Shown: positions 1-60,250 of the stretch, piece after piece
Layout: the number at the start of each line of letters is the position of its first letter
Position numbering within the stretch: the stretch's first letter is position 1
From: Pelagomonas calceolata
Lineage: Eukaryota; Sar; Pelagophyceae; Pelagomonadales; Pelagomonadaceae
Direction of reading: 5' to 3'
NCBI GenBank assembly: GCA_918797485.1
Contig: CAKKNE010000004.1
Span: forward strand, 2,604,001-2,668,000
Length of the DNA: 64,000 bases
Made by a program: the position numbers and the translations under genes
The notes under the pieces: generated by a model
Databases searched by the model: none
Told to the model about the DNA's origin: nothing
Seen by the model: only the letters and a program-made list of their open reading frames with translations

Positions 1-1662
1 GCCGCGCGCGCGCTGCGCCTCGCGGACGACGACGAGACTGCTGAGAGAGAGGCCGCGCTGGTCGCCGTCTGCGCGTGCGTCGCCATGACGCCGCCCGCGG
101 AGTGGACGAACGCGCGCGAGGTTGCCATGGCGGCCTGGGCCTGCGGCGACGCCTGCGCCAAGGGCCGCGCCGACGAGCAGGCGGTATACGCGCTGCGGAC
201 GCTCTCGAACGCCGCGCCGCGGGGCTTCGCGGCGCGCGAGGCGAGCGACGTGGCCTGGGGCCTCGCTGCGGCGCGCGAGCGGCTGCTGCCGCCCGCGGCG
301 ACGGACAACGCGACGGTCGCCGACGTCGCGGCCTTCCTCGACCGCCTCGCGGACCACGCGCGGTCGGTACCCTACGCGCCGCGCGACGTGGCGACGGCGC
401 TCTGGGCCTGCGCGAAGATCGCCGAGGCGGTCGAGAGCTGTGTGGAAATCAACCAATGAGTTAGGTTATTGTCGCGTCGATGGCCTGGAAACTTCACGCC
501 ATCGAGCAGACGCAGCTACGGAGAAAATATCGCGTCGATGGCGTGGATCGCCCGAAATTTGATGTCCGCACAGGACTGGCGCGCCCAGGCGGCTTCACTA
601 CGAGCCGTCGCCGCGCTGCGCGCCAACGCGGACCGCATCAAGGGCCCGTGGCCGCCGCGCGACGCCGCGCAGGCGGCCGCGGCCGTCGCGAGCGCCGCCG
701 TCGACGCGCCGGAGGTCCTCGACCGCGCGACGGCCGCGGCCGCGCGGGGCTGCGACCGCTGGTCGCTGCGGGACGTGGCCGACGTCCTCTGGGCCTGCGC
801 GAGGCTGGATCGGCCGCCGGCCGCCGACGCCGTCGCGGCGCTCTGCGGGGCGCGTGCCGTCCGGCGGGCGAGCGACGGGGCGCCGCCGAACACGCGCGGG
901 CGCGCCGAGCTCTGCAGCGTCGCCTGGGCGGCCGCGTGCCTGGCCCACGAATCGCCGCAGCACCTGGTCGCGGCCGTCGACACCGTCGCCGCGGCCCACG
1001 GGGCCTTGGCCGCGGACGCCGACGACGACGGCGCGCGCGACGTGGGCAGTTCGACGCTGGGCGACGCGCCGACGCCGCCCGGCGCGCCGATGGCGCGGAC
1101 GCGGCGGCTACGCGCGCTCCACCACGCGCGCCTGGCGCTGGCGGCGGCCGGCGCGTCGGAAGAGCAACTGCAGACAGTCGACGCCGCGACGACCAATGAA
1201 TTGAGGCGGGCTGCCCGCGCGGCCTGGACGAGGCGGCCGTCGGCGCCGTCGTCGCGGCACGAGGCCGTGTCCAAGGTACTCCGGGGCATGAAGGCGCAGC
1301 ACGGCGTCGTGGCGACCGCGCACGACGAGCACGGCGGCCTCGCCGTCGACGTGCTCGTACGATTGCCCGACGGCCGCGCGGTCGCCGTCGAGGTCGACGG
1401 GCCGTCGCACTTCTGCGCCGACGACCCGAAGCGGCCGCTCGGCCACACGCGACTCAAGCGGCGGCTGCTCGAGCACGCGGGCCTCGAGGCCGTGTCGGTG
1501 CCCTACTACGAGTGGGACCGCATCCCGCACTGGTCCTCGATGGAGCGCGAGCGCTACCTGCAGCGGAAGCTGGGCATCACGACGCGGCTCGTCTACGACG
1601 GCGGCGACTCGTCGTCGTTCGCGCCGCTCGAGGGCGAGCGGGGGGCGAGCCGGTTGGCGTAG
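1..1662 (+). CDS. RAP-domain protein, 5'-partial, one introner intron
   Basis: The reading frame is open from base 1, so the gene starts outside the window. Exon 1 is 1-429, exon 2 is 574-1662, and 430-573 is an introner. About 505 residues are visible. The first two thirds are Ala/Arg-rich helical repeats with recurring 'DVA.ALWACAK' and 'DVADVLWACARL' units, like the helical repeats of FASTK/OPR-type proteins. The C-terminal part (genomic 1345-1560) is a RAP domain with VAVEVDGPSHF, then G.T.LKRRLL and VSVPYYEWD. RAP proteins bind organelle RNA and act in mitochondrial or plastid RNA processing; the domain resembles PD-(D/E)XK nuclease folds. The organelle cannot be told because the N-terminus is missing. 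Family confidence is high, exact role unknown. Confidence 0.85.
430..573 (+). mobile_element. Introner intron in RAP gene
   Basis: The element runs from CTGTGTGGAAATCAACC at 438 to the 3' end ATGTCCGCACAG at 573, after an 8-bp host segment GTCGAGAG (430-437). Removing 430-573 (144 nt, GT...CAG) joins the two RAP exons in frame; without splicing an in-frame TGA ends the protein. The 3' flank GACTGGCG matches the 5' flank at only 4 of 8 positions, so this insertion looks old. Inside are inverted modules of the type CACGCCATCGAGCAG and CGTCGATGGCGTGG. Confidence 0.85.
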
Positions 1663-1902
1663 TCCTCCTTCCTTTTTTCCTGAGAGAGTAACGTTTGGTT
1701 TGTGTTGATGCAATGAGTGCGTACAACCGCGTGGGAAAAAAACAACACCGCAGCCATCCCCCGCCCTCACCCCTCCCCGCCCAATCCCATCCACTCTTCC
1801 CCTCCTCCCTCCCTTCCTCCGTCGTAACAACCCTATCATAATAATATATATATGACCAGTAGCGAACGGAACGATACTCAAGCGTGGCTGCTAAGCGGAT
1901 TC

Positions 1903-1927
1903 CTAGTGTGTTTAACAGGCCGCTAGC
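1903..1927 (+). promoter_or_regulatory. CTAG-palindrome motif, forward
   Basis: CTAGTGTGTTTAACAGG followed by CCGCTAGC, 61 bp before the ATG of the WD40/RING-like gene and pointing toward it. The rest of the 326-bp gap from 1663 holds only pyrimidine-rich and AT-rich sequence (including a TATATATA stretch near 1845). Confidence 0.6.
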
Positions 1928-1988
1928 TAGCGTAGCACAAGAGCTCCAGAGCATCGCACCGATCACTTTGCGGTGGATGCGATAGAAA

Positions 1989-3461
1989 ATGAGGCGCCTC
2001 TTCGCCCCCCAGGACCGTCTCAGATTGGCCAACGAGGACGCCGTGAATGCTTTAGCGTTTGCGCCGCCGCGGGGCGCCTGGTCCGTCGAGGCGCACGCCC
2101 ACTTCCCGCCGGCGCTGCGCAAGCGCTGCGCGAAATTATTACTCCTAAAACCGGCGCACGTCCCGAACGTCTGCTGGCTGCGCGTTTTGTCCTATGCCCT
2201 AGACGCACGGGAGGCGGAGCCTTTACTAGCCTCGGCGGCGGGCAACGGCGTGCAGCTCTGGCGCGGCGGCGCGCCGGCCGGCCGATTAAGGGGGCACGCG
2301 TCCATCGTGAGGGCGGTGGCGTTCTCGGCACGCGGCGACGCGCTCGCGACCGCTGCGTTAGATGAGACGGTGCGCGTCTGGCGGCGGGTGGATCCCGCAC
2401 GTCGAAGAGCGGAGCGGAAGATTAGATCCGACGTCGTCTCCCCTAGAAGATCAAGAAGCGCCGGCCCGCCCCAGAGGCGCTCTTGTATGCGTTCAACATC
2501 GCCGGCCGTGAGCGACGCGTCGGGCGGCGTGTCCGACGGCGAGCTGCCCTGCCGCTTCCGATCTGGAAGCTTCGGCGAGCAGCAGAAAGGGGCTTGTGTG
2601 GTCTGCGGCGTCCGCGACACGGAGCCGGCCGTGGCCCTGCCCTGCTGCGGCCAGCGCTGCCACCGGAGCTGTTTGGAGCGGTGGTTGGCATTGGCGCCGG
2701 ACGCGCCGCTGCCCTCGAAGCCGCGGGCGCAGCGGTCCGTGGCCTTCGACGACGACGACGCGGAGCCGACGTGGGCGTGCGCGGCGGTGCTGCGGCACGG
2801 CTGCGATGTTTTAAGTGTGGCGCTGTCGGATTCCTTCTGTGTTTCGGGCGCGAGGGACGGGGGCGTGCGGATCTGGGCGCCGCACGACAACGAACGACTG
2901 GTCCACGCGTTGCGGGCTCCCGTTAATAACGAAACGAATGAACAGTGGGGCGCCGTGCGGTGCCTGGCCTTTTCTGGTAGTCGCGAGCGGGTCTGGGCAG
3001 GCTCCGACGACGGCTACGTGCGCCAGTTCGTCGTGAGCACGGGCGAACTTATGCTCAGGTTCCGCGCGCACGCGTCGCGTTTATATGATGTCGCCTTCTC
3101 GCCGGAACTGAACTTATTAGCGTCGTGCGGCCAGGACCAGTTGTTGAAGCTCTGGCGCGGCGACGTCGAGGTCGACGCGGCGCGGCACGACGCCTGGGTC
3201 CACGGCGTGGCCTTCGCGCCCGGCGGGCGTTTGGTGGCGACGGCCGGCGCGGACCTGACCGTGAGCGTGTTTCCGCTTGGTGGCGGGGGTTTCTCGGGAC
3301 AAACCCCGAGCGAGCTCAAGCGCCACGAGGGCGCCGTGACCTGCTTGGCGTTTGCGCCGGCCGAGGCGGGCGGCGGCCTCGCTTCCGGTAGTGTGGACGG
3401 GACCATCGCGCTCTGGCGCCGCGTGCACGAGGACACGGACGCGACGGACTCGGACGCCTAG
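1989..3461 (+). CDS. WD40-repeat protein with inserted RING-like zinc finger
   Basis: This 490-residue protein has WD40 units in two blocks. An N-terminal block (about residues 20-130) has 'LRGHASIVRAVAFSARGD' and 'VRVWRR'. A C-terminal block (about 270-480) has 'GGVRIW', 'DDGYVRQF', 'QDQLLKLW' and 'DGTIALW'. Between them, near residues 203-235, lies a Cys/His cluster CVVCGV...LPCCGQRCHRSCLERWL that looks like the first part of a RING finger. The last Cys pair of a classical RING is not visible, so ubiquitin-ligase activity is unproven. The start is the first ATG (GAAAATGAGG) and the frame runs uninterrupted. It could be a ubiquitin-ligase adaptor or scaffold; I do not recognise an orthologue. 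Confidence 0.75.
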   Translation: MRRLFAPQDRLRLANEDAVNALAFAPPRGAWSVEAHAHFPPALRKRCAKLLLLKPAHVPNVCWLRVLSYALDAREAEPLLASAAGNGVQLWRGGAPAGRLRGHASIVRAVAFSARGDALATAALDETVRVWRRVDPARRRAERKIRSDVVSPRRSRSAGPPQRRSCMRSTSPAVSDASGGVSDGELPCRFRSGSFGEQQKGACVVCGVRDTEPAVALPCCGQRCHRSCLERWLALAPDAPLPSKPRAQRSVAFDDDDAEPTWACAAVLRHGCDVLSVALSDSFCVSGARDGGVRIWAPHDNERLVHALRAPVNNETNEQWGAVRCLAFSGSRERVWAGSDDGYVRQFVVSTGELMLRFRAHASRLYDVAFSPELNLLASCGQDQLLKLWRGDVEVDAARHDAWVHGVAFAPGGRLVATAGADLTVSVFPLGGGGFSGQTPSELKRHEGAVTCLAFAPAEAGGGLASGSVDGTIALWRRVHEDTDATDSDA

Positions 3462-3704
3462 TTTTCCCATCCCCATCGCCGTATCTACCCCTGTTGTAAC
3501 AACTCATCATGATGAAGATTACCCTCGGGACGTACACGGACGGAGTCCGAGTCCAACTGCACGCCATCGGCGCATCACCGTCCCCCATTGCTGTTGTGCA
3601 TACTAGTAGTCCACTGGCACGCCATCGCTGCGACGCGCGCGACGGATTGAGTCCCCCGCACGCCATCAGTACTATTATAACACTCAAAATTTACCGTGAC
3701 TAGG
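3462..3704. other. Convergent 3' intergenic region with introner-like modules
   Basis: Between two convergent genes there are three copies of a short module, CACGCCATC(G/A), near 3562, 3621 and 3660; the middle one continues GCTGCGACGCG. The same words make up the interior of the introners. No gene is visible. They may be 3'-UTR relics of insertions or independent hairpin units. Confidence 0.35.
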
Positions 3705-4865
3705 CTACCGTTGCAGCTGGACCAAGCCCGCCTGCTCGAGCTTCCCGATGATGGCCCGGTTCGCGGGATCGCGCATCGCCTCCTGGAAGGCCCGCGGGTC
3801 CGAGCACCGCTGCATGAGCTCCTGCGTCTTCGGGTTCATCAGCAGCTCCCGCAATTCCTCATTTTTCAACACCGCATCAACTTCGTCCTGCTCCTTTTTC
3901 GTTTTGCAGGGCTCGGGGCCCTTGCCATTCGCGCAGTCCTCGGCGATTTGCGAGCAGAGGGGGCCCATCTCCTTTTTCTCTTTTTCCGTCGGTAAAGCTG
4001 GTGTTGAGGGTTTAGGGGCGTCCTCGTCGCCCGCCAGCTTGATCATGTGGCTGCCCATGACCTCGCAGAACTCCGTCAGGAAGCGTTTGAGTTCCGGATC
4101 GCTGTCGAACTTTTTCGCGCCGTTCTTCGGGTCCTTCTGGAGCTCTTGTAACGCCGCCTGCGCGTGTCGTATGTCATCGCGGCGCCATCGACGCGATGCA
4201 GCAAACCCCGATGGCGTAACCGCACGCGAATCGCTCTCACGTAACGCCATCGCCGCGACGCTACACCAGTAGATATATACAGACGCCGCGAAACGCGCCT
4301 GGTACTTGGGATTCGACATGCCCTTGGCCAGGACCGGCCGCTTGGCCATCTCCTTTATCAAATCGGGCGTGACCCACTCGCCGCCCTGGAGCGCGGCGGC
4401 CAACGGGTGTCGATCCTGCGCCATACTCGACGCGATCTCCTCCTTCATGGACTGCATGACCTCGCCCGGCTCCTTCTTTGACGATCGTGTGATCGTGGGC
4501 ATCTCGTCCTCCTTGGGTTTCGGCTTCGGCTTGGCCGGTTGCTTCTTGCTCGACGGTTTCTTGTCGAAAAACCCTTTTTTCAGGCCCTTCTTCATGCCGT
4601 CGCCAAAACTTTTTTTCATGCGCTTTTCTTCCTTGGCCGTCTTGGCGGCGCGTTCCGCTTTATTTTGTAACGCGTCGCCCATCATCAAATCTGCTAAGCT
4701 CGGCTCGACCTCCTCGACTTCTAGATCGTCTTCTGGTGGTGGCGGGGGCGCGTCCACATCTATTACCTTTGGTTGGTCGCTTGTGGAGGGTGCGTCGATC
4801 ACAAGTTTCTTGAGGTGGCTACTGCCCGTCGGCTCGGCCAGCAAGCTCTTGTCCGTGGCTGCCAT
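3705..4865 (-). CDS. STI1-domain Hsp70/Hsp90 co-chaperone-like protein, one introner intron
   Basis: Exon 1 is 4865-4290 and exon 2 is 4157-3705 on the minus strand, giving about 342 residues. The start is the ATG of MAATDKSLL; upstream codons in frame lack ATG. The N-terminal half is acidic then very Lys-rich (KKSFGDGMKKGLKKGFFDKK). A first STI1-type helical segment contains 'NPKYQARFAALQELQKDPK', which is made whole only if the intron is removed. A second STI1 domain closes the protein ('NEELRELLMNPKTQELMQ', 'DPANRAIIGKLEQAG'). Such domains bind hydrophobic segments in HIP, HOP and TIC40-like proteins, so a chaperone-client role is likely. Compartment is unclear and no TPR repeats are visible. 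Confidence 0.75.
   Translation of the reverse strand: MAATDKSLLAEPTGSSHLKKLVIDAPSTSDQPKVIDVDAPPPPPEDDLEVEEVEPSLADLMMGDALQNKAERAAKTAKEEKRMKKSFGDGMKKGLKKGFFDKKPSSKKQPAKPKPKPKEDEMPTITRSSKKEPGEVMQSMKEEIASSMAQDRHPLAAALQGGEWVTPDLIKEMAKRPVLAKGMSNPKYQARFAASVYIYWCSVAAMALRESDSRAVTPSGFAASRRWRRDDIRHAQAALQELQKDPKNGAKKFDSDPELKRFLTEFCEVMGSHMIKLAGDEDAPKPSTPALPTEKEKKEMGPLCSQIAEDCANGKGPEPCKTKKEQDEVDAVLKNEELRELLMNPKTQELMQRCSDPRAFQEAMRDPANRAIIGKLEQAGLVQLQR
4158..4289 (-). mobile_element. Introner intron with GC-AG splice sites in STI1 gene
   Basis: On the minus strand the sequence reads GCGGCGTC, then TGTATATATCTACTGG...GACACGCGCAG, then GCGGCGTT. The two 8-mers are a 7/8 target duplication. Excision of 4289-4158 (132 nt) leaves R-F-A-A-L-Q-E-L, a normal STI1 helix. 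This requires a GC 5' splice site. A GT alternative at 4280 would also keep frame but adds three residues. The termini differ from the CTGTGTGG family, while the inside carries the same CGTCGATGGCG-type modules, so it may be a second subfamily. Confidence 0.7.
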
Positions 4866-5014
4866 CTCCTGGTGTAGCGCTGTGCTTGGCGGATCAGTGC
4901 AATGCGAGAGTATGGACTGCTGTGCTGCGAGTTTTGATCGATCGTTGTCTTGCACAGTTCCTGAGCCTAACCTCCGGATTTATCGTGCTGCCCAATCGAG
5001 CTCGAAAAACCGAG

Positions 5015-5039
5015 GCTAGCGGTCTGTAAAGCCACTAGC
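5015..5039 (-). promoter_or_regulatory. CTAG-palindrome motif, minus orientation
   Basis: GCTAGCGGTCTGTAAAGCCACTAGC on the plus strand is the reverse form of the shared motif, so it points at the STI1 gene, whose ATG is 149 bp away. Confidence 0.6.
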
Positions 5040-5419
5040 AAGGCCAATCAAAGCCAATCGTACGCTTGCCCGGGGTTCTTACATCATTCCTGGCTCGCAA
5101 TCCTCTCCTTGGAAGATTACGTCGATCCGCATATCGACGATGTTTGCTGCATTGCCGGAGTGTGCTGAGCTCGCCAGGCCGCGCTATATCTGCGCCTGCC
5201 TCTGCGTTGAGGCCGTCGCGTCCTCTAGTACGCGGAACGCTACCGGTCTGGTCGCTTCGTCGCGCGGCACCTGAAAGTTTCGCCTTCAAGGCGCCAAGTT
5301 CGCCTCAGGCTCAACCGCGCGGGCGCAGAAATAGAGCGAGATTCTCGTGGCCGCCGAAATAGGGACCGGGGCCCCGAGTTGCATCGCTCCACCTGCGCAC
5401 GCATCCTCTTAGACCCGGG

Positions 5420-5880
5420 CCGTCGGGCGGCCCGGTGCGCGCCGTAGAGGACTCAAGCACCATTGATCGCCGCGGCCTCCTCGTCCTCTACGTCCTCTAC
5501 CAATTGACTTGGACAATAGCCATGTTCTACGCCTGGCCCGAGGGCTACCGGCTGCCGCCCATCGCGCCGCCGGCGCCGGTGATGATCCAGGTCGCGTCGT
5601 GGGCGAGGCCGCGCGCAGGGCGGTCGAGGAGAAGACGACGTCGGGGCTGATGGGCGCGCGCGTGCCGTCTACTCCTAGAATGCCCGTGCGCCTGAACTCG
5701 TGGTACACGCAGTACACGCGGAGCATGTGACCAGTGTGCTCGTCAGGCAAGCCCAGAAGCGTCGTCCACGTAGCCTCCTCGTCACGTATTTCGCCCGTTG
5801 CTCACGATACGCGCGCAAGTCCGGCAGCGTGAGCGCCGGCACAAGCTGCAAATTTGGCAAAACCCGTCCAAACCGGTGCA
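5420..5880 (-). pseudogene. Possible gene relic between STI1 and lipase genes
   Basis: The 4866-5941 gap has no intact gene. On the minus strand one frame gives 'LQLVPALTLPDLRAYREQRAKYV', and a second frame continues with 'DEEATWTTLLGLPDEHTGHM' and 'LRVYCVYHEFRRTGILGVDG', which look like real protein split by one frameshift or a missed intron. On the plus strand 5435-5650 a short hydrophobic frame (LLVLYVLYQLTWTIAMFYAW) is also open. I do not recognise either family. The stretch could be a decayed gene or the end of a multi-exon gene that I cannot resolve. Confidence 0.25.
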
Positions 5881-5941
5881 CCGCACTAGTCCTCAGACAA
5901 AAAAAGAAAGCCAAAAGATAGACGAAAAAAACACAAAACAA

Positions 5942-7888
5942 CTATGTCAAAACCGACCGATCAACCGGCCGCGCCCAGTCCGACGCGATCACCCTAGCTC
6001 GCAACGCCGCGAGCGCGTCCGGCGACTCGTCAGAAGCATAAGCCCCGGAGAGCTCCAACAACAAATCGCAGTAGCCCGCCGGCAGGTGGTGGCCCAGGAG
6101 CGCGTTCGATAGTAATAAACGCTCGTAGTCGCTTGCTGATGAGGCGAACGCGACCGGACCCGTAGCCAGCCGGTCGACGTGCACGACCGCGCCCGGCAAC
6201 AAAAGCGGCTCGCGCACGGACGACTCCGTCTCCGCTAAAGCAGCGGCGATGGCGCGCGAGTTCCCAGTTGAAACGACCGGCGGTGACGGCGCTCTCTCGG
6301 CGACCACAGCCTCGGCGAAGACGTCCAGGTCCGCCGTGAGGCCTGACAAAGGCACCTCCACGTTTTCATTGATGTCGTCTGTATGAGTAACGCTCACGGC
6401 GCCCCGTACCTCTGAGGATGGCGCCGCGCCGAAGAGGAGTTGCTGCAGCCGCCTTCCTAAACCTTGATCGACGAGCTCATCTAACAGACCTTCGACACTC
6501 AACACCGACAGCCGCGCGATGGGGTCGCGGCCGCGCACGGCGCCGAGGCAGAACGCTTTACATGCTTCGGCCAAGTTACGAGAGACGCACGGTCCCGCCG
6601 CCATGCAGTACACACGTGTTTTGGCGAATGTAGGCCACACGCTGTCATCATCAACATGAGCCAAGGCTAATAGGGCCGCCACGGAAGCGCCCATGCTGTG
6701 GCCGCACAATACCAAAGTGTAGTCTGAGTATTTCTCGTGAGCTTGTCGTAGAGCTTCTGCAGAAGCCTTCTCCACAAACGCCGCGCACCGCAGAAACCCC
6801 AAATGCGCCCGGCCATTCCTAAACTTGACCTGCGACGCCGTCACGTCCGCCAGGAGGTCGCGCGTCGCCACCGTGCCCCGGATGCCAATCACGACCCACC
6901 GCCTCGCATGGTCCAGACAAACAAAAAAACTGGGTTTGTAGGCTTTGATGGACCACTTCGTGCAGAGGACGGCATCTTCACTAAGGCCGGCCATGCTCCG
7001 CAGGGCCCGCGTGTTCTCCGCGCCGCAGCAGTCCTCGGCGGGATCGAAATAGGCTACTTTTTTGTAGGTAAACAAGGCGGCACCTTTCGACAGCGAGTCC
7101 ATGTGGCCCTCGGCCATGGCGAAGCCGTAGGCCTGCGTGGACATCAAATTTCACTGCATCTGCTCGATGGCGTGGAGAGTCTACGCCATCGACGCGACGC
7201 TGTCCCCGTAACTGCATCTGCTCGATGGCGTGGAGAGTATACGCCATCGACGCGACTGGTTGATTTCCACACCGCCGCAGGCCGCCCGGCAGTACAAAAA
7301 CGCGTGCGCGAGGTCAATAAGTTGCGCCCGCGCGACGTCCGGATGCGGTTTCGAAACCCATTCTTCATAGAAGCGCTCGTGGCTCTTTCGCACGCGGTAC
7401 CAGGCCGTCGGGTCCATGGGGTAGTCCTGGAGCGGCCTCCTGCCCAGCGTCGCGCGGCAGACGCGCCAGAAGAGCGACGTGCCGTCGTCCTGCGGAGGTT
7501 CCTCGTCTTCGATCGGAGCGGGCCCCGCGTCGACGCAATGCACCCAGACGCGCCTTCGACACCTATCCGTCGAGCGCTTCGCCGCGCGACCGCCCTTGCG
7601 GTGATCATTTAACCGCTCGAACGCCGTGCCGTATAGCCATCCTTCTTGATCCGTCGCGTCGCGCACCTCCACCCTCCAACCGGCGTCGTCCGGCGCGGCG
7701 CAGGGCCGGCCGCTGTCCTCGAACTCGAAGGGGTGCGGGTCGCCGCGGCTCCAGCAGCGGCGCCAGCCCGCGAGTGGGTAGTGGCGCTCGCTCGCGACGA
7801 TGCGGAAGGGCCTCGCTTTGGGCTGCGTGATGCGGGGCTGCATTAATGCGGGGTATCCCTGCTTCTCCGCGGTTGGTGTGTCCTCCAT
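5942..7888 (-). CDS. DysF-like / class 3 lipase fusion, one introner intron
   Basis: Exon 1 is 7888-7283 and exon 2 is 7132-5942, giving about 598 residues. The N-terminal 120 residues resemble a dysferlin/peroxin DysF module: 'GWRRCWSRGDPHPFEFED', 'EGWLYGTAFERL', 'RRRVWVHC'. The rest is a class 3 (Rhizomucor-type) lipase domain with 'WVVIGIRGTVATRDLLADV' as oxyanion region, nucleophile elbow GHSMG near residue 370, and 'SVTHTDDINENVEVPL' late in the protein. It resembles sn-1-specific diacylglycerol lipases. Start chosen at MEDTPTAEK. No signal peptide or clear membrane span. The intron at 7133-7282 must be removed to join '...FLYCRA' to 'AYGFAMAEGH'. Confidence 0.8.
7133..7282 (-). mobile_element. 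Introner intron with GC 5' splice site in lipase gene
   Basis: Minus strand: GCCTGCGG (7282-7275), then CGGTGTGGAAATCAACCAG...TTTGATGTCCACGCAG (to 7133), then GCCTACGG. The 8-mers match 7/8. Only removal of 150 nt from the GC of the first copy to the CAG restores the lipase frame; the GTGTGG inside the terminal repeat would shift it. The body holds a tandem duplication of about 55 bp (CGCGTCGATGGCGTA...CATCGAGCAGATGCAG twice). Confidence 0.85.
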
Positions 7889-8081
7889 CGATGCGCGCCG
7901 CGATGTGGCACACTGCAGTGTGGCTGCAGGTGGCACTCTTTTTGTTATCGCTTGTGCTGACGTATTATTATCAGGAGCGGGCAGAGCCTCGGCAGCGCTC
8001 GACAGCAGCTACTGAAAGCTGCGTAGCCGCGTCAATCGGCCACAGCTGAGCAATGCGCCCACGTCGACGCCCCCTGGATCT

Positions 8082-9411: not shown

Positions 9412-9419
9412 GCCTAGTT

Positions 9420-10436
9420 TTATTCATTCCGTCGTTCTCTCCGTAGCTGTGCCTGCTCGATGGCGTGGAGGTCTGGCTTCCGATCGCTCTTCGGCCGCGC
9501 CTCGAGCTCGATGGTCTTGAGCTCTTGGCGGGCGCGTTCGTACGCCCGGCGAAGCTCCTTCGCGTTCGCGCGGCGGGGGGTCCTCGCGGCAACCGTAGTA
9601 GATCCTTCGGGCTCGTACCGGATCGGCACGAAGGGTTTGGGCGCGATCCCGGGCTTGAGGATGGCGCGCCCGCGGTCGAGGACGGCCGCTCGATGGCGTG
9701 CCCGGTGGCGCGTCCAGCAGGCCGTCGCGTTGCGCACGCCGGCGACGAAGCGCTCGACGGCGTCGGGGTCGCGCTTTGCTTCGACGGAGACGAGGTGGGG
9801 CGCGTGATCCAGCAGGGACGCGACCCTTGCGTAATGGCAGCGGTCGCGCTCCGTCGTCACCGACGCGGCCACCGCGTTCTCGGGAAACGTCGACGTCGCG
9901 CAGAGGAGCGGCCTCGCTTCGAGCGCAGTCGCGAAGCGGTCGAGGTATTCCCGCGCCCACGCGTCATTCCTAACCAGGAACACGCCGTACTTCGAGCCCG
10001 CAATCAACGAAAGCGGCTCGGCGAGGCGGTACCCAGCTTGTGGCGAGGACCGACGACAGGCCGTGCGCGTAAACGCCGACCACGCGCCGCAGCTGAGCGC
10101 CGCGTCGCCGTCGAGGAACAGGAGCCACTCTCCTTCTTCTAGCTTCGCGAGCGTATCGCTAACGAACCGCATCTTGCCGCAGCGCGGGTGGCCCGCGGTG
10201 CCGCGGACGTAGCGGACGCCGCTCGCGGCGGCCACCGCCCGATGGTTCGCGGCTGTCGCGTCGATGATCTTTGCGGCGAACAGCGGTGACGCGCCCACTG
10301 CCGGCGCGTCGACCCAGTAGCTCGCGATCGCTGCGATTGAACCGCAAGTTGGACCGGCTTTGACCTTCTCGGCCTGGGAGATAAACCAAGGGGGGCACTT
10401 CGCGTTCGGGACCCACGTAGCGGCCTCAAAAAACCT
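9420..10436 (-). CDS. Glycosyltransferase-like protein, 5'-incomplete, with introner-derived C-terminus
   Basis: The frame is open from 10436 down to a TGA at 9420. It reads 'FEAATWVPNAKCPPWFISQA', then 'SPLFAAKIIDATAANHRAV', then 'LLFLDGDAALS' with a DxD-type metal motif, then 'KYGVFLVRNDAWAREYLDRF'. This is the layout of GMA12/MNN10-type Golgi galactosyl/mannosyltransferases. No ATG lies in the open part: a stop precedes it, and upstream 'HLKTPGHLPDAF' hints at more coding sequence, so the 5' end is either in another exon or was destroyed when the adjacent satellite expanded. The last 17 codons (LHAIEQAQLRRERRNE) are homologous to the inside of an introner. Confidence 0.55.
   Translation of the reverse strand, partial: RFFEAATWVPNAKCPPWFISQAEKVKAGPTCGSIAAIASYWVDAPAVGASPLFAAKIIDATAANHRAVAAASGVRYVRGTAGHPRCGKMRFVSDTLAKLEEGEWLLFLDGDAALSCGAWSAFTRTACRRSSPQAGYRLAEPLSLIAGSKYGVFLVRNDAWAREYLDRFATALEARPLLCATSTFPENAVAASVTTERDRCHYARVASLLDHAPHLVSVEAKRDPDAVERFVAGVRNATACWTRHRARHRAAVLDRGRAILKPGIAPKPFVPIRYEPEGSTTVAARTPRRANAKELRRAYERARQELKTIELEARPKSDRKPDLHAIEQAQLRRERRNE
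9423..9470 (-). mobile_element. Introner fragment serving as coding tail
   Basis: Minus strand CTCCACGCCATCGAGCAGGC then ACAGCTACGGAGAGAACG matches the interior of the RAP and DnaJ-gene introners (CACGCCATCGAGCAGACGCAGCTACGGAGA) at most positions. It has no terminal repeats here and is read through as the last codons and stop of the glycosyltransferase frame. Confidence 0.6.
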
Positions 10437-10558
10437 TCAAAAGGCGTCGGGGAGATGCCCCGGAGTCTTCAAGTGCGCGGTGGGATTTTTGCCGGCTTTG
10501 CTCGGGTTTTTTTTGTGACGGGTTTTCCCCCGACAAGTTTCCCCGCCCTATCTCCCGG

Positions 10559-13500
10559 GTCCGACTCCTCGTTTTTATATCTCGCGCAATGCGTCGCCAC
10601 GTCGATGGCGTCGAGTAGGGGTAGGCCAGATATATCGGCCCGTACCCGCGATCGTAAGTATATCGGGCAGTGCCCGCGATCGTGAACACAAAATGCCCCG
10701 TACCATTGACGGAGCGCCCGACGCCTAGTACTCTACTTTCGAAACGTGCGGGACCGATGCGTCAAGACCGATAAAACGGGTTGCGCTAGCGGCCTGTAAG
10801 ACACTAGCAACGTCACGGGAGACCTTTGTGCCAGTCTTTAGAACCTTTGAGGGCAACCTCCCATTGCTTCTCCGATCTTTGCGGGTTGGGACCATCCCTC
10901 CACATCAGTACCACCCCGTACCCGCGCGCGGGCTGCATACAATTGCCCTGGCGGGCAGCCGAATGCACTGTTAAACGTCTGGCCATTGCCGCTGCGGCAC
11001 GAATGGCACGACGGCACTGAACGGCCGCGCCGGCGCCGCGGCCCGCGTCCCCGCTGCGCCGGGCCCGAGCTTTAGCCGAGGCGCGCGCCGAAAGTCGAGC
11101 GCGCGGCGTCGGCCGCACGCGGCGGTCGCGCGCGGCGCGAACCGGAAGCGAAGAGCCAGCGCCCGCCGGGCGTGGCATCCTGCCGCACCCGCTCGGCCGC
11201 GGCGCAAGCCGGTGGCGCCGCTCGAGGCGCTCAGGATCATATCAAGGCGGCATCGGGGCTGGACGTGCCGCCGCGCCCGCGGTTCTCCAGTTCTGCTTCA
11301 CGGACGCGGCGCCGACTCCTCGTTTTTATATCTCGCGCAATGCGTCGCCACGTCGATGGCGTCGAGTAGGGAAAGGCCAGATATATCGGCCCGTACCCGC
11401 GATCGTAAGTATATCGGGCAGTGCCCGCGATCGTGAACACAAAATGCCCCGTACCATTGACGGAGCGCCCGACGCCTAGTACTCTACTTTCGAAACGTGC
11501 GGGACCGATGCGTCAAGACCGATAAAACGGGTTGCGCTAGCGGCCTGTAAGACACTAGCAACGTCACGGGAGACCTTTGTGCCAGTCTTTAGAACCTTTG
11601 AGGGCAACCTCCCATTGCTTCTCCGATCTTTGCGGGTTGGGACCATCCCTCCACATCAGTACCACCCCGTACCCGCGCGCGGGCTGCATACAATTGCCCT
11701 GGCGGGCAGCCGAATGCACTGTTAAACGTCTGGCCATTGCCGCTGCGGCACGAATGGCACGACGGCACTGAACGGCCGCGCCGGCGCCGCGGCCCGCGTC
11801 CCCGCTGCGCCGGGCCCGAGCTTTAGCCGAGGCGCGCGCCGAAAGTCGAGCGCGCGGCGTCGGCCGCACGCGGCGGTCGCGCGCGGCGCGAACCGGAAGC
11901 GAAGAGCCAGCGCCCGCCGGGCGTGGCATCCTGCCGCACCCGCTCGGCCGCGGCGCAAGCCGGTGGCGCCGCTCGAGGCGCTCAGGATCATATCAAGGCG
12001 GCATCGGGGGGGGACGTGCCGCCGCGGGCGCAGTTCTCCAGTTCTGCTTCACGGACGCGGCGCCGGCTCCTTGCTTTTATATCTCGCGCAATGCGTCGCC
12101 ACGTCGATGGCGTCGAGTAGGGGTAGGCCAGATATATCGGCCCGTACCCGCGATCGTAAGTATATCGGGCAAGTGCCCGCGATCGTGAACACAAAATGCC
12201 CCGTACCATTGACGGAGCGCCCGACGCCTAGTACTCTACTTTCGAAACGTGCGGGACCGATGCGTCAAGACCGATAAAACGGGTTGCGCTAGCGGCCTGT
12301 AAGACACTAGCAACGTCACGGGAGACCTTTGTGCCAGTCTTTAGAACCTTTGAGGGCAACCTCCCATTGCTTCTCCGATCTTTGCGGGTTGGGACCATCC
12401 CTCCACATCAGTACCACCCCGTACCCGCGCGCGGGCTGCATACAATGCCCTGCCGGGCAGCCGAATGCACTGTTAAACGTCGGGCCATTGCCGCTGCGGC
12501 ACGAATGGCACGACGGCGCTGAACGGCCGCGCCGGCGCCGCGGCCCGCGTCCCCGCTGCGCCGGGCCCGCGCTTTAGCCGAGGCGCGCGCCGAAAGTCGA
12601 GCGCGCGGCGTCGGCCGCGCGCGGCGGTCGCGCGCGGCGCGAACCGGAAGCGAAGAGCCAGCGCCCGCCGGGCGTGGCATCCTGCCGCACCCGCTCGGCC
12701 GCGGCGCAAGCCGGTGGCGCCGCTCGAGGCGCTCAGGATCATATCAAGGCGGCATCGGGGGGGGACGTGCCGCCGCGGGCGCAGTTCTCCAGTTCTGCTT
12801 CACGGACGCGGCGCCGGCTCCTTGCTTTTATATCTCGCGCAATGCGTCGCCACGTCGATGGCGTCGAGTAGGGGTAGGCCAGATATATCGGCCCGTACCC
12901 GCGATCGTAAGTATATCGGGCAAGTGCCCGCGATCGTGAACACAAAATGCCCCGTACCATTGACGGAGCGCCCGACGCCTAGTACTCTACTTTCGAAACG
13001 TGCGGGACCGATGCGTCAAGACCGATAAAACGGGTTGCGCTAGCGGCCTGTAAGACACTAGCAACGTCACGGGAGACCTTTGTGCCAGTCTTTAGAACCT
13101 TTGAGGGCAACCTCCCATTGCTTCTCCGATCTTTGCGGGTTGGGACCATCCCTCCACATCAGTACCACCCCGTACCCGCGCGCGGGCTGCATACAATTGC
13201 CCTGGCGGGCAGCCGAATGCACTGTTAAACGTCTGGCCATTGCCGCTGCGGCACGAATGGCACGACGGCGCTGAACGGCCGCGCCGGCGCCGCGGCCCGC
13301 GTCCCCGCTGCGCCGGGCCCGCGCTTTAGCCGAGGCGCGCGCCGAAAGTCGAGCGCGCGGCGTCGGCCGCGCGCGGCGGTCGCGCGCGGCGCGAACCGGA
13401 AGCGAAGAGCCAGCGCCCGCCGGGCGTGGCATCCTGCCGCACCCGCTCGGCCGCGGCGCAAGCCGGTGGCGCCGCTCGAGGCGCTCAGGATCATATCAAG

Positions 13501-15049: not shown

Positions 15050-15059
15050 GGCGCCCTGC

Positions 15060-15327
15060 GCGATCTACGACGGCCGATTCGGCACGGCCAGCCGCGCTGA
15101 GGCATCGGACCGAGTGGCGGAAGAAGCCGCGGGGCCCCTACGACGAGTGGCGCACCCGCGCCGCGGCCCCTCTTCCTTCGCTCGTCGCGACGGTGATGCA
15201 CTTCATTCCCGTGGTTCCGAGGCGTCGCGACGGCGCCGACGCCGCCGTTCTATTTCAGGCCTTCCCATCTCCGGACGACGCCGTGGAGGCGGGCACCCAC
15301 ACGATTAGGACGTTCAATTACCACTAG
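15060..15327 (+). pseudogene. Possible gene remnant at right edge of satellite
   Basis: A plus-strand frame gives 'TEWRKKPRGPYDEWRTR', 'VATVMHFIPVVP' and 'PSPDDAVEAGTHTIRTFNYH' before a stop at 15327. The composition is protein-like, but there is no recognisable family and no start: the frame emerges from satellite sequence. It may be the 3' end of a gene truncated by the array. Confidence 0.25.
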
Positions 15328-18543: not shown

Positions 18544-20236
18544 ATGAAGACCACCCTTGTAACCCTTACGCTCGCGCTTGCGATCGCGCAAGGCGCGACG
18601 CTCGCGCAAGGCGAAGTCGACTGGCCGTCGCGCGCGAAAGCCGTGAGAGGCGCTCTGAAGGACTCCTTCCGCGCCTACGAGAAGGACGCGAGCGGCTTCG
18701 ACGACCTCGCGCCGGTCTCGCGACGAGGCGTCAACTGGCTGCACTCCCGAGCCACCCTCGTCGACGCGCTGGACAGCTTGTACGTCGTCGGGCTACGCGA
18801 GGACTACGAGAGGGCCGTGACCGAAGTGCTGAGGCCGACGCTCGTCGGCGAGCCGCCGTTCTGGCAGTCTGTCTCCGTTTTCGAGTACCACATCCGTGTC
18901 GTAGGAGGGCTATTGGGCGCGTTCGAGGTGTCGGGCGATCGGCGCTTGCTCCACGCGGCGAGCCATGCCGCCGACCGCGTGCTGAGCGTCCTCCCGCGCA
19001 AATTGGGAGACGCCTACACGCGCACGCGGCAGCGCCTTGCCGATCCCTACGGGAGACCCATCTTGTGGCTGGTCGCGCGTATCATCGACGAGGTCCAGGC
19101 GCGCTGGCCCGGGCAGCACAAGGACTGCGCGTCTCTGGCCGGTATAGGCAGCTTCGGTCTCGAGCTCCGCGTCCTGGCGCGCGAGACGGGCGACCTCACG
19201 TACGAGGCCGCGGCCGATCGTATCTTCGACCAGTTACACGAAGGCTGGGCCGAGGACGGCGGCGGTGGCATGAAGCGGTGGATGAAGGGGTTCTACGGCA
19301 AGGACTGCAATTTCAACAACCGGTTGCACGCGCGCCGAGGCCTTGGGTCGGGGGGCGACTCGTTCCACGAGTACCTGCTGAAGGAGCAGCTCGTCGGCGA
19401 CGCCTCGGAGGCGCGCGCGGCCATGTACGACTGGGTGGAAGCTAGATTGATGCGCGAGGCGCTGCCGAACGAGCATCTCGCGCTGTTTGCTCCCGGTATG
19501 CTCGCGCTCGGCGCGACGACTGCAAAGCGCCGGCGGAGCGCCTCTTCGACAAGTCGGGAGCGCGCGCTCGCCCGCGCCCGGGAGCTCGTCGACGGCCACG
19601 GGCGCGACTGGTATCGCACTGTGTGGAATCAGATTTCGGACGCCCCACGCGTCGATGGCGTGGGGGTTCACGCAGATCTCCGCAATACTTCTCAGGATAA
19701 CCTAACTCACTGGTTGATTTCCACACAGGTATCGCACCCCCACGGGCCTCGGCGCGGACGGGAAAGGTGAAAAGAGTCGATGGTATGCTCTGCGACCGGA
19801 ATATGTGGAGAGCCTCTTCTACCTCTACCGGACGACGGGCGACGACGTTTACAGGGACCGGGGCTGGGCCGTGTTCGAGGCGCTCGTCACGCATTGCCGC
19901 GTGAAGGCGACGGGCGCGTTCGCGGGTCTCAAGGACGTGCGGTCTCCAAAGCCCGAGTTAGATGATGCGATGCCGTCGTTCTTTCTCGCGGAGACGCTGA
20001 AGTACTTGTACCTGCTCTTCTCCGAGCGGGACGTCTATCCCCTCGACGAGTGGGTGTTTACGACGGAGGCGCATCTGCTCGCGACGGAGCCGCGGTGCGA
20101 CCGGGCGGCCTGCGTCGGGCCCGCGCGGCCGCCGCGGTGGCGGCGACTCCCCCTCGACGTCGTGGTATTGCTCCTCTTCGGCTGCTTGTTGTGGATCCGT
20201 GTGCGGCGGCGACGCCGGAAGGAGCGGACGGTGTAA
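18544..20236 (+). CDS. GH47 alpha-1,2-mannosidase with C-terminal membrane anchor, one introner intron
   Basis: Exon 1 is 18544-19610 and exon 2 is 19729-20236, giving 524 residues. A signal peptide (MKTTLVTLTLALAIAQGATL) supports this start over an upstream Met. The GH47 (alpha/alpha)7 barrel shows the conserved 'FEYHIRVVGGLLGAF', 'GSGGDSFHEYLLKE', 'RPEYVESLFYLYR', 'ETLKYLYLLFS' and 'FTTEAHLL', with the acid residues expected for catalysis and Ca binding. It trims alpha-1,2-mannose from N-glycans in the ER or Golgi. The C-terminus has a hydrophobic span (PLDVVVLLLFGCLLWI) followed by Arg/Lys, suggesting a type I anchor, whereas animal GH47 enzymes are usually anchored at the N-terminus. Confidence 0.9.
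19611..19728 (+). mobile_element. Introner intron with perfect 8-bp target duplication
   Basis: GTATCGCA (19611-19618), then a 110-bp element from CTGTGTGGAATCAGATTTCGG to GGTTGATTTCCACACAG, then GTATCGCA again (19729-19736). The duplication is perfect and the termini are inverted repeats. The intron is 118 nt, not a multiple of three, so its removal is needed to join 'GHGRDW' to 'YRTPTGLG'. It is probably the youngest introner in the window. Confidence 0.95.
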
Positions 20237-23004: not shown

Positions 23005-23028
23005 GCTAGCGGCCTGTAAGACACTAGC
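23005..23028 (-). promoter_or_regulatory. CTAG-palindrome motif, minus orientation
   Basis: GCTAGCGGCCTGTAAGACAC followed by TAGC. It lies between the ends of the EF-hand-like gene and H2A.X, so no start codon lies in front of it; one of three exceptions to the orientation rule. Confidence 0.5.
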
Positions 23029-28884: not shown

Positions 28885-28893
28885 TTTGTCGAT

Positions 28894-47741: not shown

Positions 47742-47966
47742 TCTTAGTGGTTCTTATGACATACCATACATGTGGCTAATCGCCGCGCCATTGCCGCGAC
47801 GTCGGTGCGATCAGTGCTTCCGCGACTCGTCCTCGACCTTGTGGATAGCGGGCCACTTGTTCGCCAGGAAGGTCTCCACCTGTGTGCATCGAGACTCCCC
47901 TACGTGCCTGCTCGACGGCGTGCGCGTCGACGACCGCGAGACGCCATCGCGCCGGCGAAGGCCCCC

Positions 47967-48416
47967 TCAGCAATGACGCGGAGTCCGCACGTCGCCGGAC
48001 CACCACTCCGGCGCCGGGTCGCTCGGCGGCTTGCCGTGCTCCTGCGCGAGCCAGGCGTCGCAGATGGCGCGGGCGTCGTCGGGCGTTGTCACCTTACCGC
48101 CGAGGCACAGCACGTTGGAATCATTAATTGCGCGCGCGCAACGCGCCGCGGCCACGTTCTCGCACGTCGCGGCTTGTATGCCGCTGAACCTGTTGGCCAC
48201 AATCCCAACACCCATGCCCGTGCCGCAGAAGAGCAGCCCCTTCGCGCCGTCAGTTTGCACGCGCCGCGCCACCTCGCCCGCTTTGTCGTAGTACGCGCCC
48301 GTGCCCAGATCGTCGACCTCGTAGCCCTGCGCGCGGCAGTGCTCCACCAATACGTTTTTCAGATCCTCTCCGAAGCCGTCCGCGCCGGCCACGATGAGTG
48401 GTTTTGACTCAGTCAT
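47967..48416 (-). CDS. RpiB/LacAB-type sugar-phosphate isomerase
   Basis: A protein of 149 residues. The RpiB fold is clear: 'VAGADGFGEDLKNVLVEHC', 'GYEVDDLGTGAYYDKAGEVA', 'AKGLLFCGTGMGVGIVANRF', 'GIQAATCENVAAARCARAIN' and 'DSNVLCLGGKVTTPDDARAI'. The catalytic Cys (LFCGTGMGVGI) is present. RpiB interconverts ribose-5-phosphate and ribulose-5-phosphate in the pentose-phosphate pathway; some relatives act on allose or galactose phosphates. No targeting peptide, so cytosolic. The family is bacterial-like and patchy in eukaryotes, compatible with an old transfer. Confidence 0.9.
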   Translation of the reverse strand: MTESKPLIVAGADGFGEDLKNVLVEHCRAQGYEVDDLGTGAYYDKAGEVARRVQTDGAKGLLFCGTGMGVGIVANRFSGIQAATCENVAAARCARAINDSNVLCLGGKVTTPDDARAICDAWLAQEHGKPPSDPAPEWWSGDVRTPRHC

Positions 48417-49773: not shown

Positions 49774-50574
49774 CTAAATACCCCTAATTAGGGGTATTTA
49801 GAGCGAGGCGCCAGCGAGCCGTTAGGGTTCTAACCCGTATTTAACCCGCACCTTTCAAACACTAACCCGCACGTATCAACCCTAACCCGCGTTCCCGTAC
49901 CACCTGGGGGTACGGTTGCTTAAAGCACGTGTGATAGTGCACGTGCTATAACAGCGAATTAGGTTGGGATGCTAATGCTAATCTAAAAGTGATTTAATCA
50001 CCAAAATCGAACACGAAGTGTTCTTGTGCGCAGGGCGCCGCCGCAGCGTCTAAATCACCGCCGCGGCCACGCACAGCGCGCGCGGGGTGCACGGGGGCTC
50101 CTGCGTGCGCGAAGCGCTAGCGGCGACTCGCGCGATTGGCGGCGCGGAATCGACGCGCGAGCTCCGTGCGAACCCCTTGGCGAACACCACGCCGCCAGCG
50201 TGTTGTGCGCGCGCATTTCTTGTGCGCGCAGCAGCGCTTCGCGCACGCAGGAGCCCCCGTGCACCCCGCGCGCGCTGTGCGTGGCCGCGGCGGTGATTTA
50301 GACGCTGCGGCGGCGCCCTGCGCACAAGAACACTTCGTGTTCGATTTTGGTGATTAAATCACTTTTAGATTAGCATTAGCATCCCAACCTAATTCGCTGT
50401 TATAGCACGTGCACTATCACACGTGCTTAAGCAACCGTACCCCCAGGTGGTACGGGAACGCGGGTTAGGGTTGATACGTGCGGGTTAGTGTTTGAAAGGT
50501 GCGGGTTAAATACGGGTTAGAACCCTAACGGCTCGCTGGCGCCTCGCTAAATACCCCTAATTAGGGGTATTTAG
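49774..50574. mobile_element. 801-bp foldback element (giant inverted repeat)
   Basis: Left arm 49774-50118 (345 bp) and right arm 50233-50574 (342 bp) are inverted copies differing by about three bases, around a spacer of about 114 bp. Each outer end begins with its own perfect palindrome CTAAATACCCCTAA/TTAGGGGTATTTAG. The flanks are AGGA on both sides, and joining them rebuilds motif S (GTTACGGTGCTAGGACTAGT) as found intact at 44075 and 23065. So this is an insertion with a 4-bp (at most 6-bp) duplication. The arms hold several TAACCCG words. No protein is encoded, so it is non-autonomous. Confidence 0.9.
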
Positions 50575-50613
50575 AGGACTAGTGGGCGGAGTTGTATTTG
50601 TGTGTCCAACTTG

Positions 50614-50839: not shown

Positions 50840-53386
50840 ATGCGTTGCGCCAGCCTTGTGTCGGGCCTGCTCGTCGCCCGCGCAGCAGCACAACTCGCGA
50901 CGTTCAAGCAGTGCGACGTCCGCGTCGAAGCCCTGGAACGCGGCGGCGGCTGCCTCGCCGTCGACGCGGCCGCAATCAACGCCACGCTCGCGCCGCCCGA
51001 GGGCACGACGGCCTGCGACGACAGCGCGACCTGGACGGACGGCACGAACGGCTGCGCCCAGTATGAGGCCGCCGCGGCGCGCGGCGACGACTGGTGCGAC
51101 GAGTTCGGGGCGCTCGGCGCCGCAACCGAGTGCTGCGTCTGCGGCGGCGGGCGAACGAGAGCCTTCAAATACAAAGTAGGTGACGCGGTCGTGGTCCGGA
51201 ATGCTCGCGCGCCGCTCGACGGCGTTGTGGACGCGGTGAGACCGGCGGCCGGCTTCGCCTACGACGTGAAAGTGACCGCGCGCTTCCGGAAGCCGGCAAT
51301 CTACCGTGTGAAGAGCGAGAGCGACCTGCAGCCCGGCCGGCGCCCGCGGAACGGCCTGCTCCTGCAGCCCTGTGCCTCATCGCCATCACTCCGCTGGCGG
51401 CTCGATATAGAGGGCGACGACGCGGTCCTAGCACACGCGGAAACCAACACAACAGTCGGCGACGCTGTAGACGGAGGGCGCTCGGACTCGCTGCGGTACG
51501 CGGACGAAACGAGCACGCCGCTTACGTTCCGCAAGCTCGGCCGCTGGGACGTCTACGAGATCTCGCGGGAGAGTTCTGTGAGGGAGTGCCTCGTCGGCGG
51601 GAAGTTTGGGAAGCCGGCCCTCGAGCAAGCGACGTGGGAGGCCTGCGGCGGGCCGAACGACGGCTTACCCTCTCGGTTGTGGCGTATTCGATGCGACGCC
51701 GGGGACGAGGGGGACGGGGCGCTCGTGGAGCGCATCGATGCGCTGCTGGCGCGGCCGGACGCGTCGACGCTACCGCCCTGGGAAGTCTTGGGCGTGGCCC
51801 GGAACGCCGAGCCTGCCGCCGTGAAGGGCGCCTTCCGGGAGCTGTCGCGGCTCCTACATCCCGATAAAAGGTCCTGGCTCGGCCGCAAGATTCCCGGAGA
51901 GAAACTTGTCAGGGCCTGTGTGGAAACCGTCGTGTCGACCCCCACGCCATCGACGCGACGCCTGCTCGATGGCGCGGGGTTGCGCCTGACGCACTGGTTG
52001 ATTTCCACGCAGGTGAGAGCGGACGCGCTCTTCGCGACGGCGCAAAAGGCCTACGATGGGCTCAAGAGCGGCGACGCCAAGGCGCGCGAGAAGTTCCGGT
52101 TGGACGCGGAGAAGGCCGAGCGCCTCTTTGGGACGTCGCAAGATGTCTTGGAGTTATCGCCCGAGGACGTGCTTGTTGATGAGAATGGCGCGCCGCGCGT
52201 GCGGCCCCAAGACAAAACGGTGGCGTGGGTCGTCGTGCTGTACAACCCGTCGTGCATGATGTCCCGAGCGGTCGCACCCCTCATAGAGCTCGCGGCCGCC
52301 CAGAGCGTCGAGACCCGCTTCGCGGCGTTCGCGTCTGTGTGGAAATCAACCAGTGAGTTAGGATACCTCTACGCCATCGAGCTGACGCGGTCACGGCGAC
52401 AGCGTCGCGTCGATGGCCTGGAAACTCCACGCCGTCGAGCAGACGCAGCTACGGAGACAACATCGCGTCGATGGCGTGAGGCGCCCGAAATTTAATTTCC
52501 ACACAGGTTCGCCTGCGGCGGGCACGGCTCCGAGAAGGTCGAGTTCGAGCGCAAGGGCTTCGCGGCCGTCTTCGAGGACCCGATCTGCCAGGCGCTCGAG
52601 CCGGGCTTCAGCGAGTCGCCGAGGATAGCGGCTGCGGCCGGCGCCGGCGACGGTCCAGCGCCGCGGCTCGTCTCGTTCGGGCGCGTGGCGGCGCCGGACC
52701 TGCCGGACCGCCTCCTAGCATACGCCACGAGGGCCGCGGCCCACGTCAAGGTCGCGGGCTCCATCGACCGCACGGACGACGTCGACGAATGGCATGCTCA
52801 AGGCGGACTGCGCGTGGCGCTGTACCTCGATGCGAGGCCCGACGCGGACAAGGCCGCGGCGGCGGCCGCGGAGGCCGCGGTGGCGGCTCGGGCGCGAGGT
52901 CTCCGCGCCGCGGGTGCTCGGATCCTCGTGGCGGCCTGCTTTGGGTCGGAGGGCTGCGGCGCGCAGGACGTCCGGTTTGCGCCGATGCTCCGCGTCTACG
53001 TTTCCGACGACGACGCCGCGGGTCAAAGTTTACTGGACGAGCCGCTCGTGGATGCCAGAGATGCGGCCATCGCCGTAAGCGCGCTGGAGCGGACCCTATT
53101 GGCCCTCCTTGGGCCGTCGGACGCCGTCGCCGTCGACGGCGACGACCAGACGTCATATGATGAGCCCGCGGAACTTCAGGGCGGCGGCTCCTGCGCCGGC
53201 GCGTCGTCGTCGTCGGCGCCGCGCGACGGCCTCGCGCCACCCGAAGCCCCGCGCCTCGATGGCCCGCGCACGGTGCCGCCGCGGCCGCAGCTCCCGGCTC
53301 GCGAGGCGCCGCTCTCGCGACGGGGCGGGAACTCGCAGCTGTATGGCGGGGCGCGGAGCGGTGGCGGGGGATTGATTGGGGGGTGA
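50840..53386 (+). CDS. Secreted DnaJ/thioredoxin-like protein, two introner introns
   Basis: Exons are 50840-51907, 52013-52326 and 52507-53386, giving 753 residues. A signal peptide (MRCASLVSGLLVARAAAQ) leads to a Cys-rich module ('CDDSATWTDGTNGCAQYEAA', 'WCDEFGALGAATECCVCGGG'), a small beta domain ('YKVGDAVVVRNARAPLDGVV') and a lectin-like stretch. The DnaJ domain is 'PPWEVLGVARNAEPAAVKGA' and 'FRELSRLLHPDKRSW' with the HPD motif. It becomes complete only after intron 1 is removed (GEKLVRADALFATAQKAYDG). A thioredoxin-like domain follows ('VAWVVVLYNPSCMMSRAVAP') with CMMS in place of CxxC. The C-terminus is low-complexity. Together this suggests an ER-lumen co-chaperone, ERdj5-like in plan. 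Confidence 0.8.
51908..52012 (+). mobile_element. Introner intron 1 of the DnaJ/thioredoxin gene
   Basis: GTCAGGGC, then CTGTGTGGAAACCG...GGTTGATTTCCACGCAG, then GTGAGAGC. The flanks match 6/8. The intron is 105 nt, in frame and without a stop, so a retained form would still be translated. It interrupts the DnaJ domain just after the HPD helix. Confidence 0.88.
52327..52506 (+). mobile_element. Introner intron 2 of the DnaJ/thioredoxin gene
   Basis: GTTCGCGT (52327-52334), then CTGTGTGGAAATCAACCAGT...AATTTCCACACAG (to 52506), then GTTCGCCT. The flanks match 7/8. Removal of 180 nt leaves R-F-A-A-F-A-C-G-G. The GTGTGG inside the terminal repeat would give the wrong frame, so the 5' splice site is the host GT of the duplication. 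The body has two inverted-module units. Confidence 0.92.
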
Positions 53387-53433
53387 GGTGTGTAAGTGAT
53401 ATCTGTAGTGTATATTTACACGAAGAAGCTTAA

Positions 53434-56118: not shown

Positions 56119-56134
56119 CCCCCCTTCTCGCTAC

Positions 56135-59538: not shown

Positions 59539-59619
59539 GAGAGCTTGTTTGTAGCTACGGTCGCGTCGATGGCGTCCCTGGGCTTGCCCTGCGGCGGGCA
59601 AGTGCGCCGGAAAACTTGG

Positions 59620-59641
59620 GCTAGCGGTGTAAGACACTAGC
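59620..59641 (-). promoter_or_regulatory. CTAG-palindrome motif, minus orientation
   Basis: GCTAGCGGTGTAAGACAC followed by TAGC (two bases short). It lies 278 bp before the SmF ATG but in the reverse sense; the third orientation exception. The 359-bp gap also has an inverted pair CTTGCCCTGCGGCGGGCAAG at 59583-59602. Confidence 0.5.
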
Positions 59642-59897
59642 AAACAGGCTTGGGCCGGCAAAACTCGACAGCGAGGCCTTAGAACAGGCACTCGTGCTCT
59701 GCCGAAGAGAAAAGATACTACTGCAGCGCTCCGGCCACCTGTACTACGTGACAGCTTAGGCCTGTATAAGCAGCGAGGCCAAGGCGGTAGCGCGCAGCAG
59801 CGGCGAGGTAGCGAGGCGCGCGAAGCGAAGCCCAAGAGGCGCGCGCGTCCACGACCGATAGTGAAGCAGTTGAGGACACGGAGGACGCTCTGCGACC

Positions 59898-60250
59898 ATG
59901 TCCATCGTCAACCCCAAGCCGCACTGCGCCGCGCATCAATCAAACGTCGTGGCGGCCACGCCATGGACGCGACGCTGCTCGACTGGCGCACAGACTCACT
60001 GGTTTTATCGGCGCGCAGGTTCCTCAACGACCTCACGGGAAAAGATGTTATCGTGAAACTGAAATGGGGCATGGAGTACGAGGGCAAGCTGCTGAGCGTC
60101 GACTCGTACATGAATGTGCAATTAGGCGACGCCAAGGAGTACATCGACGGCCAGCTCGCGGGCGCGCTCGGCGAGATCTTGATTCGGTGCAACAACGTCA
60201 TGTACATGCGGCAGAGCCCGGCGGGCGGCCTCGCGGCGATGGAGGAGTAA
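59898..60250 (+). CDS. SNRPF: Sm protein F of spliceosomal snRNPs, with introner intron
   Basis: Exon 1 is 59898-59920 (MSIVNPKP with the last codon split) and exon 2 is 60019-60250, giving 84 residues, the normal SmF size. Joined, it reads [24 protein letters not shown], and continues '[20 protein letters not shown]' and '[16 protein letters not shown]'. The Sm1 and Sm2 motifs are intact, and NPKPFLN.LTGK is diagnostic of SmF rather than LSm6. Without the intron the N-terminus would be 'PHCAAHQSN', which fits no Sm protein. It forms the heptameric Sm ring on U1, U2, U4 and U5 snRNAs. Confidence 0.93.
59921..60018 (+). mobile_element. Decayed introner with GC-AG splice sites in SmF gene
   Basis: The intron GCACTGCGCC...GGCGCGCAG is 98 nt. 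Its 3' part, ACTCACTGGTTTTATCGGCG, aligns with ACTCACTGGTTGATTTCCAC of the mannosidase introner. Its centre, CACGCCATGGACGCGACGCT, aligns with CACGCCATCGACGCGACGCC of DnaJ-gene intron 1. The terminal repeats and target duplication are worn (3/8), so it is an old copy. No GT can replace the GC start without breaking the SmF frame. Confidence 0.8.

Follow-up and report, generated by a model that had tools for sequence, protein, structure and literature searches.

How did seven introns in six different genes come to carry similar ends and interior modules, and where did their splice sites come from? The question is raised by a stretch of 64,000 nucleotides, the whole of which is referred to as the window. 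Its GC content is 64.3%, and it contains eukaryotic nuclear genes, including UTP25, dymeclin, GH47, Der1 and SmF. For Pelagomonas calceolata, introner-sized introns and a GC content of 63%, near that of the window, are given in the account of Guerin et al. (2022, PMC9481584), and the window is probably from a pelagophyte. All seven segments listed in a first-pass annotation of the window were found again at their positions, in six genes. Each of them has the ends GT/GC...AG, with a GC donor in three (i4158, i7133 and i59921), and the intron lengths in the window are 98-180 bp.

The host genes are different genes and not paralogues (RAP, STI1, lipase, GH47, DnaJ and SmF in the window; EcKL/APH and CNNM on other contigs). 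On the plus strand, the phase 0 introner intron i430 (430..573) lies in a RAP-domain gene and contains an element body at 438-573 in forward orientation, and i19611 (19611..19728) is a phase 2 introner intron of a GH47 alpha-mannosidase gene, with the element reversed relative to the gene. A DnaJ gene on the same strand holds both i51908 (51908..52012), a phase 0 introner intron within the J-domain with a reversed element, and i52327 (52327..52506), a phase 2 introner intron with a forward element and interior units 58 bp apart. The same spacing of interior units is found in i7133 (7133..7282, minus strand), a GC-AG introner intron in phase 0 of a class 3 lipase gene, the element body of which (7133-7274) is forward relative to the gene. 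In the GC-AG intron i4158 (4158..4289, minus strand, phase 0) of an STI1/HOP-domain gene, the ends are ruined and the interior modules alone are common to the family. The GC-AG intron i59921 (59921..60018, plus strand), in the gene for the spliceosomal Sm protein SmF, is a decayed, reversed copy.

A pattern scan of genome contigs yielded two stretches, one apparently a chance match and the other in NZGT01000054.1 (C182), which is filed under the Spirochaeta sp. MED672 MAG. Genes on this contig are interrupted, it carries copies of the element, and the semi-palindrome GCTAGCGGCCTGTAAGACACTAGCAA of the window recurs in it; we infer that it is a mis-binned pelagophyte contig. Both NZGT01000054.1 and contig C146 of Spirochaeta sp. 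MED672 resemble eukaryotic, pelagophyte DNA, and the bin appears mixed. Three further duplications that match at all eight positions are present in the two contigs, namely GTCGGCCG, GTCATGAC and GTCGCCAC (copies C182a, C146a and C146b); the smallest of these copies has a body of 57 bp, and a decayed copy sits between C146a and C146b. For C182a and C146a, the spliced genes are in frame and match EcKL/APH and CNNM/CBS.

Family membership was assessed with leave-one-out profiles made from the other window copies and four copies from the MAG contigs. These recovered i430, i52327, i19611, i51908 and i7133, five of the seven introns, at E < 1e-8. The first-pass annotation had all seven sharing termini or modules; this was borne out for the five clear copies and for i59921 (E 0.0012), which is decayed but supported; leave-one-out homology did not recover i4158 (E 0.17). 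Apart from i4158, similarity in the group extends to both splice boundaries, the mark by which introners are recognized. When best-pair scores were compared with those of random window stretches, the score of i59921 was reached by 0 of 366, that of i4158 by 3 of 360 (0.8%) and that of a possible eighth copy, i47880, by 5 of 364 (1.4%). Since random stretches reach their scores, i4158 and i47880 are marginal members, and the case for i4158 belonging to the family is weak. The element bodies are 57-172 bp long, and their ends, read outwards, are TTGATTTCCACACAG or close to it on both sides. In 8 of 10 copies, the terminal inverted repeats differ by 1-5 edits over 2 x 17 bp; i4158 and i59921 have 14 edits each.

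Across the seven window copies, the two 8-mers agree at 42 of 56 positions, where permutation gives a mean of 22.6 (p 0.0003). With three insertions from the MAG added to make ten, the count rises to 66 of 80 and the permuted mean to 34.4; a count of 66 was reached by none of 200,000 permutations, and 38 shifted controls gave at most 30. For single copies, the background was taken from random pairs of one 8-mer starting with GT or GC and one starting with G, of which 0.08% match at 8/8, 0.5% at 7/8 or more, 3% at 6/8 or more, 33% at 4/8 or more and 63% at 3/8 or more. An 8-bp duplication had been proposed at the introner borders, and five of the seven copies stand out accordingly: i19611 (GTATCGCA, 8/8), i7133 and i52327 (7/8 each), i4158 (7/8, where placing the body end by the splice site favours the match) and i51908 (6/8, both differences being synonymous). 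The duplications of i430 (4/8) and i59921 (3/8, body end likewise set from the splice site), however, are at chance level and thus give no support. Copies with unclear ends (the second one in C182, at about 2230-2397, and decayed ones near 4085-4230 and 6429-6536 in C182 and near 6870 in C146) were left out of the count, although the one at about 2230-2397 was used in the leave-one-out profiles, and the copy at 47880-47990, found later, is also outside it. In i19611, i52327, i7133 and i51908, everything from base 9 of the intron to its last base is element, and the splice ends coincide with the ends of element and duplication.

Taking out six of the segments (all but i59921) leaves open frames in five gene models, and the SmF protein without i59921 aligns gapless to solved SmF across the junction, which agrees with the annotated restoration of the host codons by splicing. 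The GH47 match after removal of i19611 is 302.8 bits. For i4158 and i7133, no solved homologue reaches across the junction. From frame and homology together, we infer that the introners are spliced. Two of them, i4158 (132 bp) and i51908 (105 bp), have lengths that are multiples of 3 and no in-frame stop, so the frame alone is no proof of splicing at these two, and they might instead be unspliced insertions kept in the protein. Overall we consider this unlikely, although i4158 may be such a case. With i51908 spliced out, the Pfam match of the J-domain covers positions 3-58 of 63 (31.3 bits), whereas retention cuts it to positions 3-33 (27.4 bits). The spliced J-domain also aligns, weakly (E 1e-4), to Sec63 across the i51908 junction.

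The introners are very probably MITE-like elements, non-autonomous DNA transposons with inverted repeats. Each insertion would duplicate 8 bp of the target, and the first bases of the upstream duplicate would become the donor (GT or GC). The terminal repeat of about 15 bp, its outward end lying in or near TTGATTTCCACACAG, would give the pyrimidines and CAG of the acceptor and perhaps also the branch site, with TTGAT as a putative one. Splicing would then remove one duplicate together with the element and restore the reading frame and, because both ends carry an acceptor, the element would be removable in either orientation. Nine copies have a readable polarity, four of them forward (i430, i52327, i7133 and C182a) and five reversed relative to the gene (i19611, i51908, i59921, C146a and C146b, the last on the assumption that it is located in the same CNNM gene as C146a). 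The occurrence of both orientations together with the duplications favours DNA transposition over reverse splicing, the route of spread at the RNA level that has been suggested for some fungal introners. Strong predicted RNA folding in five stretches (two whole introns and three partial ones, z -2.4 to -3.7) would suit such a route, but it predicts sense-only insertion and no duplication, and we regard it as extremely unlikely here. Ordinary old introns that predate the element and were invaded later by a repeat are very unlikely too; i4158 and i59921, with their ruined ends, could fit this history, but the four introns that are element from base 9 onwards speak against it. For five of the seven window copies, an origin by DNA transposition in which the duplicated 8 bp provide the donor and the element provides the acceptor is well supported, and the three further 8/8 cases on the other contigs add to this.

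The elements would have moved by cut and paste through an unseen transposase. Elements of the hAT superfamily make 8-bp duplications. No transposase family was found among 37 window proteins run against Pfam, a set that includes two unspliced forms, one protein entered twice and several proteins without any family match. No element-free allele turned up, as none of the loci compared contained a relative of the six spliced proteins at E 1e-3. As for spread by viruses, neither of two exact introner patterns was matched in viral contigs, and a phage search of window positions 1-8000 returned nothing.

The falling match between the two 8-mers had also been read as a relative age series. This reading is unsupported, as edits in the two 17-bp ends and duplication mismatches in ten copies gave rho 0.21 (p 0.56, n = 10), and rho -0.21 (p 0.62, n = 8) when i4158 and i59921 were omitted. 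Two copies contradict it directly: i430 has well-preserved ends (2 edits) and 4 duplication mismatches, and i4158 has ruined ends (14 edits) and 1 mismatch. Duplication decay was thus rejected as a clock, and the ten copies show that it is not a safe one.

The possible eighth copy, i47880 (47880..47990, minus strand), is absent from the first-pass annotation. It is a decayed GT-AG candidate near the 3' end of an rpiB gene, with a 6/8 duplication, the acceptor end GATGCACACAG and a lost left element end; its junction (after residue 142) is beyond the matches to solved homologues, which end by residue 130. This copy was first spotted by eye, and it sits on the mismatch limit of a scan for acceptor, duplication and module. 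That scan returned 11 rows: four known copies, 47880-47990 and six alternative pairings in the neighbourhood of known copies. It missed i4158, i59921 and the true bounds of i430, and each of 20 decoys produced between 0 and 10 hits. A second scan, for end pairs and duplications, also gave 11 window rows, four of them known (i7133, i19611, i51908 and i52327), but does not discriminate, since four decoys yielded 2, 24, 4 and 13 rows. Alone, these two scans prove nothing. At 9433..9472 (minus strand), a fragment like the interior module lies where a minus-strand ORF with no Pfam match ends; element ends are absent there, and the fragment may be an exonised copy.

The general mechanism is already published (Huff 2016; Gozashti 2022), and the window copies are a further example of it. 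For the introners of Aureococcus anophagefferens, co-option and insertion in both orientations are reported by Huff et al. 2016, as cited in a review (PMC10228655), and PMC7789003 attributes to them canonical splice motifs and direct repeats, along with terminal inverted repeats that do not vary in length. These introners are from a pelagophyte, as the window family probably is, and we liken the two by description; of the two, only the window family is described as having a 58-bp interior unit and GC donors. An 8-bp target duplication, like that of the window family, is reported for the family 4 introner of the pelagophyte Aureococcus sp. (Gozashti et al. 2022, PMC9860276). According to the same source, both splice sites lie within the family 4 element and the transcript gains 12 bp, whereas in the window family the donor lies in the duplication and nothing is added; most families of this build are ascribed there to DNA transposition. 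Amoebophrya introners, as described in PMC7789003, resemble the window family in that inverted repeats can join the intron ends and direct repeats lie at the exon borders, but their direct repeats are 3-5 nt long and their splice motifs non-canonical, compared with 8 bp and GT/GC-AG here. The present data provide a base-by-base record of a transposon-born intron family, probably pelagophyte, with copies from another source, in which supported copies are set apart from unsupported ones.

The interior motif CGTCGATGGCGT occurs 70 times in the window with up to two mismatches, against 14.5 expected. With at most one mismatch, 11 occurrences fall in introner introns and 7 in a tandem array. Coding DNA on a rough map has 3, where 0.77 would be expected, and the other DNA outside that map has 8, where 0.2 would be expected. 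Because CGTCGATGGCGT is also enriched in intergenic DNA, the interior module alone is not a safe introner marker. An intergenic pair of module motifs at 3558..3644 (minus strand), with sites 58 bp apart at 3561 and 3619, the second having two mismatches, is perhaps debris of a non-genic copy; in general, CGTCGATGGCGT may be debris of such copies or a host motif. It is also conceivable, if improbable, that the terminal repeat has been shaped into a strand-symmetric acceptor cassette, which would allow splicing from either strand, and that the 58-bp interior carrying CGTCGATGGCGT exports host regulatory sequence into the coding region with each insertion. The tandem array (10528-15060) repeats a unit of about 751 bp six times; every unit contains the semi-palindrome as well as a CGTCGATGGCGT motif, and the array had no Rfam match at gathering score.

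At 49774-50574, two arms of about 345 bp separated by 114 bp form a perfect foldback with palindromic 28-bp ends (CTAAATACCCCTAATTAGGGGTATTTAG); it may be either a recent element or an assembly artefact. The semi-palindrome GCTAGCGGCCTGTAAGACACTAGCAA was found in the window at 8079(-), 18383(+), 21450(-), 34562(+), 38823(-), 43918(-), where the opposite strand matches better, 48585(-), 59613(+), which was added by eye, and 61590(+), as well as at 23005, 32676 and 50611, and in NZGT01000054.1 at 585 and about 2683. The reversed motif gave 0 hits. Of 12 loci outside the tandem array, 9 lie 112-350 bp upstream of a coding segment on the same strand, with no segment between, according to a rough codon-score map, and GCTAGCGGCCTGTAAGACACTAGCAA is a candidate promoter or 5' UTR element.
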